This document shows, piece after piece, positions 33,289 through 37,255 of a stretch of 64,000 nucleotides of DNA (positions are counted from its first letter, which is position 1; every line of letters begins with the position of its first letter). Location: positions 558,001 to 622,000 of the forward strand of contig JABTUU010000002.1 in NCBI GenBank assembly GCA_015075275.1, written 5' to 3'. The notes beneath the pieces are model-generated. The model was given only the letters and a program-made list of their open reading frames with translations. It was not told where the DNA came from and made no database searches. This DNA is from Anaerolineales bacterium (GTDB lineage Bacteria > Chloroflexota > Anaerolineae > Anaerolineales > Villigracilaceae). A program made the position numbers and the translations under genes.

Positions 33289-35835
33289 TTACTTTATCGT
33301 TACTTGAATCACAGCGGTTTCCACGCGTTGATCGGTTCTCACCGTCTGTAATTGCACAGCGTACAACCCGCTTAATCCCGCTGTATTCCACTCAGCCAGC
33401 AGATCATCTTCCACAGGCATATCGCCTCTGCCGACCTCGATCCATTCCTGCGGATTGAGTCCCCGCCCGACCAGCACGCGATACGACGCAAAATCCGCGC
33501 CTGCCGCGGTTCCGCTAATTTGCACCATACCGCCTACTTCTGCAAATAGTTCGGGAAAGGCGATATTCACATCGGGATTCGGCGGCGGTAACTGAATCAC
33601 GTCATAGGCGGTCGGCGGGATCGCCACACCCGCGCTTTCAGCCCATGCTCGCGCCTCCGGCGGGACGACGAGATATGTACGTTCCTCGATCAATTGCGGC
33701 AGAGTAAACACAGTTGCGAGCAAGCCAGTCTCATGATTGATCGCATATGTACGATACATCGTATCCGCTTGCACAGGTTCGTTCCCCTGTAAGAAAACTT
33801 CCTGCGCCACGTTCGGGCAATCGGAAGTCGGCAACATACCCGATGGATCGCACACGGCTGCCGCCGAAACGCCCGCAGGCAGGGGCCAATCTTCCAGCGG
33901 TAGGTTCTGCGACGCAATCTGCATCAACGCATTCCACAACTCGACAGAGATATGCGCTTCTCCATTTCTCGATCTTTCTTGAAAGAGGGGCGAAGATTCG
34001 CGCGAGCCGACCCACGCCGCTACAACGCGCAAGGGCGAGTAGCCGATCGTCCACGCTTCAAGCGCATCGGCAGTCTGCCCCAACTTCACAGCGGCAGGTC
34101 TGCCGACATTGAGCGCGCTGGAACGCTCTGCGCGCGCGCTAAGATCGCTCAGCGAACGGTTCACCAAATATGCCAGCGCCGGGGAGACGATCGGCTTCGC
34201 TTGCGGCGTCGTCCAATCGAGCCACAAACCGCCATCGTTGCCCTCCACTTTTAAGATCGTCGTTGATGCGATCTTGCCATTTATATCCTGCCCAAAAAGC
34301 GCGCCTTGCTCCGCAAACACGCCGTAAGCGCTCGCCGCATCCAGCAAAGAAAGTTCTGCGCCGCGCGTTACGCCAAACGACAACATAACGTTATCTATGC
34401 TCTCGGCTCCCATTTGCGCCGCCACCTGCGCGGCGGGCGCGGGATAATCATTTGCCAACGCAGTCCGCAAACGCATCGGTCCGTGATACGCGCCATCGAA
34501 ATTTTGGACGTCCGTTTTGCCCGGAATATCCCAAATTAACGAAGCGGGACTCAAACCTCGCGTGAACCCTGTGAGATAGATCAACGCATCTAACGCGGAG
34601 CCAGGCTTGTGCGCGCCGATCAGCGGCGTCTCTCGTCCTCCAAACGTCTCGCCGACCGCCGCGAGGACTTGTCCCCTTTGGGGGTCGGTGACGATCGCGC
34701 TGGCAGACGAATCGGGAATCGTTATCGAAGACGGCAACGCGGATAAGAATCGCAGCGCGTCACATTGGATGGATGGATCGGGCAGACCCGCAAGCCGTGT
34801 TGCGTAAAACGCCGTAACGCATGACGATTGTTTCTGCACGTTGAAGTCAAGCGTTGAAATGATCGTCAAGCCGCCGCGTTCGATGCGCGTGCGCGGGAAT
34901 TGCGAATCGAGTTGAGTAAGGAGAAGGTTAACGAAAGCCGCGGCAGGCTCGCCCGGAGCAGAGCCGAAGGGCTGAACGTCGGAAGGAAGCGGCGGCTGAA
35001 AGAGGAGAGATTCTCCCAGCGCGTTGGCGGTTGCTTCGTCCGATAAAAGCCCAAGAGCCGACATCTTCCGAATCGTTTCACGTCCGCGTTCGAGGGCGAT
35101 TTGCGGCGCATCGTATGGATTGAGGCTGGGGGAGTCGCTCACTGCCGCGAGGATAGCAGACTCGGCGGTTGAAAGTTGCGCGGCAGGTTTCCCGAAATAG
35201 AGTTGCGCTGCACTTTCAGCGCCGAAGGCATAGCGACCGAAGTTTGCCGAGTTGAGATACCACTCGAGGATTTGCGCACGTCCGAACTGCGAAGTGATCT
35301 GCGCGGCGAGGATGCGTTCACGCAGCGCGCGGCGGAGGGACGGAGACTCGTTGAAGAGGAGGAGATCGTATACGAGTTTTTGAGCAAGGGTATCGTGCAA
35401 TTCGTAATTGGTAATTGAGTTGAGCGAGTAACCTGAATGATTCCAAAAATTTGGATCGGAGGTTGTGATGATTGCATCGGCAAGCGATTGCGGAAGGCGT
35501 TGCGAGTCTGCATCGCTGAGGAAGATGTAGCGGCGCGGCGAATCGTCGGGCGCAAAGGTGAACAAAACATGTTCGCGCGCGCGGTCATAGATTTTTGTCG
35601 GTTGAAGGAGCAGTCCGTTGGGAGGGTTGAGGAGGATCGGAAGGTTTTGCGCTGACGGCACATCGCGCGTGAGGTTCATATACGCGAACGCGGTTGCGAT
35701 GATGAGCGCCGCGATCGTTAATGAAAGTATCATCCCCGCATTGATGAAGAGGCTGCGCTTGCGCGAGCCGCTAGCGCGTTGTTTGGCGAGTCGCCGCTTG
35801 CGCCGCGCGCGCAGGATGGGGAGAGTGGAGGGCAT
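33289..35835 (-). CDS. Class A penicillin-binding protein homologue with degraded active sites
   Basis: 848 residues in the order cytoplasmic basic tail, one helix (about 31-52), glycosyltransferase-51 domain (about 80-275), transpeptidase domain (about 375-610) and a C-terminal Ig-like domain. The fold motifs are clear (EWYLNSANFGRYAFGAESAA, GYSPLRVVAAWVG), but catalytic residues are gone. The GT51 Glu of the usual EDxxF is Ser126 (SDPNF). The second Glu position reads Gln188. SxxK reads Ser413-Ala-Leu-Asp416, SxN reads Asp463-Tyr-Pro465, and KTG reads Lys584-Leu-Gly. It is probably a pseudoenzyme with a structural or binding role. A repeat word is in frame at 35397-35424. Confidence 0.9.
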   Translation of the reverse strand: MPSTLPILRARRKRRLAKQRASGSRKRSLFINAGMILSLTIAALIIATAFAYMNLTRDVPSAQNLPILLNPPNGLLLQPTKIYDRAREHVLFTFAPDDSPRRYIFLSDADSQRLPQSLADAIITTSDPNFWNHSGYSLNSITNYELHDTLAQKLVYDLLLFNESPSLRRALRERILAAQITSQFGRAQILEWYLNSANFGRYAFGAESAAQLYFGKPAAQLSTAESAILAAVSDSPSLNPYDAPQIALERGRETIRKMSALGLLSDEATANALGESLLFQPPLPSDVQPFGSAPGEPAAAFVNLLLTQLDSQFPRTRIERGGLTIISTLDFNVQKQSSCVTAFYATRLAGLPDPSIQCDALRFLSALPSSITIPDSSASAIVTDPQRGQVLAAVGETFGGRETPLIGAHKPGSALDALIYLTGFTRGLSPASLIWDIPGKTDVQNFDGAYHGPMRLRTALANDYPAPAAQVAAQMGAESIDNVMLSFGVTRGAELSLLDAASAYGVFAEQGALFGQDINGKIASTTILKVEGNDGGLWLDWTTPQAKPIVSPALAYLVNRSLSDLSARAERSSALNVGRPAAVKLGQTADALEAWTIGYSPLRVVAAWVGSRESSPLFQERSRNGEAHISVELWNALMQIASQNLPLEDWPLPAGVSAAAVCDPSGMLPTSDCPNVAQEVFLQGNEPVQADTMYRTYAINHETGLLATVFTLPQLIEERTYLVVPPEARAWAESAGVAIPPTAYDVIQLPPPNPDVNIAFPELFAEVGGMVQISGTAAGADFASYRVLVGRGLNPQEWIEVGRGDMPVEDDLLAEWNTAGLSGLYAVQLQTVRTDQRVETAVIQVTIK
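35397..35424. repeat. In-frame 'gtaattggtaattgag' repeat in the PBP homologue
   Basis: Encodes SITNYELHD on the minus strand, inserted where the GT51 family has GGSTITQQL. The same words are frequent in intergenic DNA at 58492-58712. Confidence 0.8.
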
Positions 35836-35944: not shown

Positions 35945-37255
35945 TCATCCCTCGATCAAATCTCCTAGCCATTCCATCAATCCGCTCGATTCTTTTTCGG
36001 GCAGATTGCTTTTCACGGTTCCATTCATCCCATTGATTAACACTAGATGCTCGCGCCCGTCGAAGGGAAGTTCGGTCATCCATACGGGGAGCAGGGTGAG
36101 GCGGAACGATTCGACAGCCATATTTGCAGAAGAAATTGAGAGTAATTTTACAGGATCAATTAATAAGGGCAGGTCGCGTTTATATTTTGCCAGCGTTTGC
36201 ACGCGGGCATCGAGCGAGGCTTCCGCCATGGGAATGTCGTACACTTCGGCGGGCCAGTTTGCAAGATAGCCTGCCTCGTATGGTTTGATCGCTCGAAATT
36301 CAAACGTGGAGATCAAGCGTTGAAACACCCCTGAAAGTTTTCGTGCGGCGGGAATCGGAAGGTCGTTGACGTGAACGGGATAAGTCTCATTTACGCGCAC
36401 AGTCTTTTGATACTTATATCCAAATTGAATTTCACTATCGTCCACTTTCTCGCCGACATAATCGACAACGCCGCCGACGTCAAACGTCCACAATGGGAGA
36501 TATACGCCGCGCGGCAGATCAACTTTCTTTTCAGGTCGAATCGCATGTTTCTCCACCCATTCGATTAAGAATTTGGTTGCGCGTTGTTGATCGAACGCAT
36601 GCGGGATGATCCCATCGGGTGCGAGCAATCGCTCTTCCGATTCCCAATGGACGACATACGAGGAACCGCAATACACGCATGTTGTCGAAATTTGATTAGG
36701 CGACAGGATGAATTCGCTGCCGCAGCCTTCGCAGTGAAAGACTTGTTGATTCAACGGCTTGCCATGTCCGCGCGCGGTTGCCATGGCGATGATGAAATCT
36801 TTCTCGTCGGCAGCGCCAGGCTGGACGGCAAACTTCTGATTGCGCGAGCAGTACTCGCACGTCAGCGATTGGCCGTCGGGAGAGAATGTCATTCGTCCGC
36901 CGCATTTCGGGCAGACGAATCGCTGAGCGTCCACTGTTTGCAATCCCTGCGGCGGAAGCGGCAGATGATCGGGATCAACGATCTCATCCGCTTTGAGTTT
37001 GCCGTCGAGAATCGCCAGCGCGCGCCGCGCGCGCGTGTGCTGTAGATCGTGCGCGAGGCAATTCTCTAACGCTTTACGCTTTTCGATTTTATCGTCTATT
37101 AACTGGCTTATCCAAAACCACGCTTCCGCCAGCGCGCCGCGATCGTGACTCATATATGCGGCGCGGTCCAAATAGCGGAGCGCGACGTCTTTGCGCCCTG
37201 TCTTCGCCTCAAGAATTCCGCGTTTGAGGAGCTCCCACCCGTAATCGTCCGTCAT
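35945..37255 (-). CDS. TPR and double zinc-ribbon protein of unknown function
   Basis: 436 residues. The N-terminal 80 residues look like TPR helices. Two zinc ribbons follow: Cys115/Cys118 with Cys133/Cys136, and Cys175/Cys178 with Cys193/Cys196. The remaining 230 residues form a domain with alternating beta segments (VYLPLWTFDVGGVVDYVGEK) as seen in large 'zinc ribbon plus beta' proteins that may associate with membranes. The ATG has AAAGGAGA upstream. It lies 12 bases after the DUF2142 gene and closes that operon. Confidence 0.75.
   Translation of the reverse strand: MTDDYGWELLKRGILEAKTGRKDVALRYLDRAAYMSHDRGALAEAWFWISQLIDDKIEKRKALENCLAHDLQHTRARRALAILDGKLKADEIVDPDHLPLPPQGLQTVDAQRFVCPKCGGRMTFSPDGQSLTCEYCSRNQKFAVQPGAADEKDFIIAMATARGHGKPLNQQVFHCEGCGSEFILSPNQISTTCVYCGSSYVVHWESEERLLAPDGIIPHAFDQQRATKFLIEWVEKHAIRPEKKVDLPRGVYLPLWTFDVGGVVDYVGEKVDDSEIQFGYKYQKTVRVNETYPVHVNDLPIPAARKLSGVFQRLISTFEFRAIKPYEAGYLANWPAEVYDIPMAEASLDARVQTLAKYKRDLPLLIDPVKLLSISSANMAVESFRLTLLPVWMTELPFDGREHLVLINGMNGTVKSNLPEKESSGLMEWLGDLIEG

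Follow-up and report, generated by a model that had tools for sequence, protein, structure and literature searches.

A conserved class A PBP homologue of Anaerolineales that lacks canonical residues of both catalytic centres

Results

The locus encodes an intact class A PBP homologue

The window, that is the whole 64,000-nucleotide stretch that was analysed, comes from an Anaerolineales bacterium of the Villigracilaceae (assembly GCA_015075275.1, contig JABTUU010000002.1, positions 558,001 to 622,000). ORF analysis gave an intact minus-strand frame of 848 aa for a class A penicillin-binding protein (PBP) homologue (Table 1), in agreement with the first-pass annotation, which had called the gene unbroken. 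Proteins of this class are enzymes familiar from textbooks and are targeted by drugs. The only Pfam matches of the window protein were Transgly (96.9 bits) and Transpeptidase (20.9 bits, under the cut-off of 22.1); a LytM (M23 peptidase) domain was absent, and the C-terminal domain had no significant Pfam match. Against the NCBIfam PBP1A family (TIGR02074) the protein scored 233.5 bits, with a cut-off of 508.75. A basic segment (ILRARRKRR), conserved at the N-termini of orthologues, precedes the membrane anchor, the exact span of which was set by eye.

Table 1. Coordinates of the pseudo class A PBP gene and its features in the window
Feature	Position	Strand	Evidence
Pseudo class A PBP gene, 848 aa	33289..35835	minus	ORF, Pfam and NCBIfam matches, fold, orthologues
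Membrane anchor, about residues 29-56	35668..35751	minus	Model helix 5-56, orthologue N-termini
GT51 transglycosylase domain, residues 76-262, catalytic Glu lost	35050..35610	minus	Pfam PF00912 at 110-258, alignment
Ser126 at catalytic Glu position	35458..35460	minus	Alignment
Glu173, partner Glu retained	35317..35319	minus	Alignment
Transpeptidase-fold domain, residues 376-650, active site lost	33886..34710	minus	PF00905 below cut-off, fold matches
SxxK position, S413-A-L-D416	34588..34599	minus	Alignment
SxN position, D463-Y-P465	34441..34449	minus	Alignment
KTGT position, K584-L-G-Q587	34075..34086	minus	Alignment
Post-transpeptidase segment, residues 656-740, most conserved part of pseudo clade	33616..33870	minus	Identity comparison
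C-terminal fibronectin-III/Ig-like domain, residues 750-848	33292..33588	minus	Model and PDB matches

An AlphaFold2 model built on a 48-row alignment (pLDDT 89.8, pTM 0.80) places the GT51 and transpeptidase folds in one chain behind the N-terminal anchor. Its best Foldseek match in the PDB was 3dwk, a class A PBP that we take to be PBP2 of S. aureus. Haemophilus PBP1A (5u2g) matched with Z 34.2 over 515 aligned residues, and the rmsd of 7.4 is due either to a different angle between the domains or to a match that spans both. Modelled alone, the C-terminus forms a sandwich of the fibronectin-III/Ig-like type, with CbhA modules as its nearest match (3pdd, Z 11.5, 1.9 Å over 83 residues), a likeness of fold that shows no function. 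Compared with class A PBPs of the PBP1A family, the window protein has the same order of domains, a membrane anchor, the same fold across both domains and a homologous sequence, but it lacks the catalytic Glu, motif 2, the SxxK Lys, SxN and KTGT.

Catalytic residues are replaced in both domains

Alignment with canonical class A PBPs bore out the earlier assignment of Ser126, SALD (413-416), DYP (463-465) and KLG (584-586) to the positions of the transglycosylase Glu, SxxK, SxN and KTG; Ser126 falls at the E233 position. The partner Glu, which had been placed at Gln188, was misassigned: the second catalytic Glu, that of the RKxxE motif, is Glu173 in RALRE and is kept, and Gln188 lies 15 residues further on, within AQILEWYLN. 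The Glu173 column, which corresponds to E290 in E. coli PBP1b, is Glu in 49/49 canonical homologues and in 123 of 154 inactive ones. One loss had gone unlisted. The lipid II donor site is lined by motif 2, and the window protein no longer has this motif: GGSTITQQLVKN has become LHDTLAQKLVYD (Q271 to K153, K274 to Y156 and N275 to D157). The description of the protein as having all catalytic motifs replaced was slightly too strong, in that most are lost while Glu173, Ser413 and Lys584 stay.

The losses are shared across an orthologous group

When 100 relatives were searched, almost every genome of the family proved to encode a full-length homologue. In a scan of named genomes from which the best 80 loci were kept, almost all loci were titled Chloroflexota, the catalytic set was absent in 80/80, and the closest (99% identical) was from Anaerolineae bacterium UTCFX1; these 80 also include a Villigracilaceae, a Brevefilum and a Ca. 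Desulfolinea bin. One contig (L167) that bears the Anaerolineales gene is filed as Arcobacter sp. (isolate SulCav_AS07-7), an assignment that is probably a binning error. Plasmid records held distant canonical relatives only. Some Anaerolineales genomes had no good match to the orthologue, among them a 97%-complete congener (G008), so the gene is dispensable in those lineages of the order.

We aligned 154 non-canonical rows, relatives from across Anaerolineales included, with 49 fully canonical ones; the core of the former comprised 147 distinct sequences, one of them from outside Anaerolineales. Across these 147 the SxxK Lys, the SxN Ser and the SxN Asn were each found in none, and the transglycosylase Glu was kept in six. 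The same losses in 147 distinct sequences are far beyond chance, and the substitutions are conserved across an orthologous group, as the first-pass annotation had proposed to check. Among the members of the Anaerolineales pseudo clade that were sampled, none had a transpeptidase site intermediate between the canonical and the altered state. New residues have become fixed in place of the old: the SxN Ser column is Ser at a frequency of 1.00 in active proteins and Asp463 at 0.98 in the core pseudo set, and among the 154 rows Q271 is replaced by Lys or Arg in 125, N275 by Asp or Glu in 133 and T701 by Gln in 103. Judged from sequence, this is the pattern of an altered yet maintained protein.

Ser/Thr413, Asp463 and Lys584 occur together in 126/147 distinct sequences. 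This co-occurrence, with the near-fixation of Asp463, would fit a rewired transpeptidase pocket in which the three residues form a new catalytic or ligand-binding centre for a different substrate. We regard such a centre as rather improbable, however, as position 413 is Thr in 37 of the 154 rows, only the linker and the anchor are less conserved in the pseudo clade than the transpeptidase domain, and the pocket may just be closed by the charged Asp-Lys pair.

Purifying selection continues after catalytic loss

Whole-gene dN/dS (Nei-Gojobori) was 0.12-0.17 for eight congener pairs with dS of 0.30-0.96, far from the value near 1 that the first-pass annotation had named as telling against its reading; a ninth pair, 99% identical, gave 0.33 and was too close to judge. 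These values indicate that the gene is not decaying, and the informative pairs place purifying selection after the catalytic loss. The slowest domain in most pairs was the C-terminal part (dN/dS 0.04-0.11), and the transglycosylase (GT) and transpeptidase (TP) domains likewise showed clear purifying selection (mostly 0.08-0.18). A pseudogene in decay, an artefact of sequencing or an alignment error would account for the motif losses themselves and nothing more. This explanation, to which we give practically no credence, is refuted by the dN/dS far below 1, by open frames carrying these losses in well above 100 genomes, contributed by many projects, and by columns checked against the 49 canonical homologues. 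The conserved losses and the dN/dS strongly support the inactivity proposed in the first-pass annotation, and on established PBP chemistry together with the sequence evidence the window protein is almost certainly a non-catalytic PBP.

Persistent selection on the GT domain would also be consistent with a buffer, sensor or guide to which lipid II or nascent glycan binds but is left unprocessed. The GT domain retains its fold, and the cleft residues Glu173, Arg169 and Asn195 are conserved. Against this, position K274 is Lys or Arg in only 3/147 distinct sequences and Q271 is Gln in 13/147, while N275 is Asp or Glu in 126/147, a poor setting for a pyrophosphate. Binding of this kind is therefore unlikely. 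Of the roles first suggested for the inactive protein (scaffold, binder or regulator), the lipid II binder is accordingly weakened by the loss of Q271, K274 and N275.

Constraint has shifted towards the C-terminus

Domain identities were compared between pairs matched for overall identity (46-52%). Pseudo pairs showed identities of 51% (GT domain), 46% (TP domain), 60% (post-TP segment) and 50% (Ig-like domain); the corresponding values for active pairs were 59%, 55%, 43% and 34%. The identity of the C-terminus minus that of the catalytic domains was +0.056 (sd 0.044) in 1734 pseudo pairs, 90% of them positive, and -0.158 (sd 0.056) in 478 active pairs, none positive; the pairs overlap in their sequences, are not independent, and yield a relative measure that is by itself no proof that the C-terminus has tightened. 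In family f49, GT identity was only 34-44% between inactive pairs compared with 74-78% between active pairs, and the C-terminus was about equal in both. These differences indicate that the C-terminal module was kept as the catalytic domains relaxed.

The high relative conservation of the post-TP and Ig-like parts, and the C-terminal dN/dS that is usually the lowest, would also be expected if the Fn3-like module alone mattered and the PBP body were a passive stalk holding it outside the membrane. We consider this quite improbable, because the clear purifying selection on the GT and TP domains and the many cleft residues retained go beyond the needs of a stalk.

The pseudo-PBP descends from canonical orthologues

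Orthologues are canonical in most families sampled across the class, and canonical ones also occur in other Anaerolineales families (f3, f4, f10, f11 and f15 of the genome set). Those with an Ig-like tail (L067, L188, L305 and others) share with the window protein the gene lineage, the C-terminal region and ILEWYLN, but have all catalytic residues; an additional terminal Ig domain is present in many of them (Big_7 in L067) and absent from the window protein. A tree rooted on other class A PBPs needed three inactivations, and its well-supported branches force three; it was a quick search of a thinned set without bootstraps, with the most divergent members on long branches and some left out. The first inactivation lies at the base of the Anaerolineales pseudo clade (28 rows in one group, SH-aLRT 99), the second within family f49 (L308, L194 and L309) and the third in family f62 (L319). 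The computation shows that the pseudo-PBP descends from catalytically canonical orthologues.

The inactivated orthologues outside the order come from four genomes (L308 from G286, L309 from G332, L194 from G260 and L319 from G223). Losses in f49 are less complete: L308 keeps SYN and L309 keeps KTGTT, and both are without the transglycosylase Glu and the SxxK Lys. Such incomplete forms, one with SxN and one with KTG, may show the order of loss.

Other wall-synthesis genes and the gene neighbourhood

The genome (2.88 Mb, 95.7% complete) has a separate active PBP set of the kind that the first-pass annotation had suggested looking for: one other class A PBP (L001) with all motifs present, and three canonical class B PBPs with SxxK (SVLK, STFK and SVFK) and KTG. 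It also has three SEDS genes. Wall-synthesis catalysis is therefore possible without the pseudo-PBP. A second, canonical copy of the pseudo-PBP orthologue was not found in this genome.

A zinc-ribbon protein gene (35945-37255, minus strand) lies directly upstream of the pseudo-PBP gene on the same strand. Across 80 loci, surveyed up to 10 kb on each side, the recurrent neighbours were the zinc-ribbon gene (38/80), folP (33/80) and ftsK (24/80), with an RNase Z-like gene (27/80) and pfkA (25/80) on the opposite strand. None of these five was found beside active orthologues. We claim no candidate for a conserved operon partner, since the recurrent neighbours are absent there and recur only loosely among the 80 loci.

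Discussion

The best explanation of the window protein is a class A PBP in which the anchor, the GT51 and transpeptidase folds and the C-terminal Fn3-like module persist and both catalytic centres have been lost. We think it probable that it is a conserved pseudoenzyme serving as a scaffold or allosteric partner in cell-wall synthesis. Anchored in the membrane on the side of the cell wall, it would partner the active synthases that remain, structurally or allosterically; the PBP body would provide a docking frame, and the C-terminal module would contact another component of the envelope. Three points count against this reading: the recurrent gene neighbours are loose and are absent beside active orthologues, some lineages of the order do without the gene, and the co-occurrence of Ser/Thr413, Asp463 and Lys584 could reflect a pocket that still works. 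The pseudo-PBP is predicted to carry out no glycan polymerisation and no cross-linking, and to bind no penicillin covalently.

We infer the scaffold or allosteric role by elimination and by analogy with two known systems. Degenerate LytM factors (EnvC, NlpD and DipM) are dead cell-wall enzyme homologues that regulate live ones (PMC10336132, PMC8416486). The likeness is one of working only: their fold is unrelated, they act on hydrolases, and they have known partners. In RodA-PBP2 the pedestal of a class B PBP, a non-catalytic part, passes activation to the SEDS polymerase (PMC6207328). This too is a works-like analogy, with another PBP class and with PBPs that are still catalytic.

Pseudoenzymes as a kind, and inert regulators of cell-wall enzymes, are already known. 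The open-access full texts searched contained no description of an order-wide class A PBP group with both centres lost. Here a PBP lineage spanning most sampled families of an abundant order of anaerobes has lost both activities and the gene is still kept, and at least two further inactivations of the same gene lineage have taken place elsewhere in the class. The non-catalytic importance of a PBP thereby becomes directly testable. The lineage also carries a warning for annotation, because proteins of this kind still hit transglycosylase and transpeptidase models in family searches.

A second degenerate protein was seen in the same genome. An 806-aa chain (G000:C1:1029612-1032029, plus strand; locus L327:1225-3645) fuses a SEDS polymerase (PF01098, 223 bits) with a class B PBP-like transpeptidase domain in which both SxxK (YPTGSLLDPF) and KTG have been lost. 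It is a second pseudo-PBP of Anaerolineales, apparently the older of the two. We also considered a wider scheme in which Anaerolineales PBPs, namely the pseudo class A PBP and this SEDS-linked class B-like domain, have been turned into inert frame subunits, dead PBPs that would coordinate polymerisation and cross-linking as activators or scaffolds; we put it forward as a tentative idea that is more doubtful than not. Coupled loss of the two was considered and rejected, as the SEDS-linked domain looks degenerate also in some families with active orthologues (f4, f10 and f11), where readable, and the losses appear uncoupled. Nearly all of about 50 homologues of the SEDS fusion, from many families of the order, are without both motifs, and in some families the class B-like domain is a separate gene adjoining SEDS, degenerate too where it can be read.
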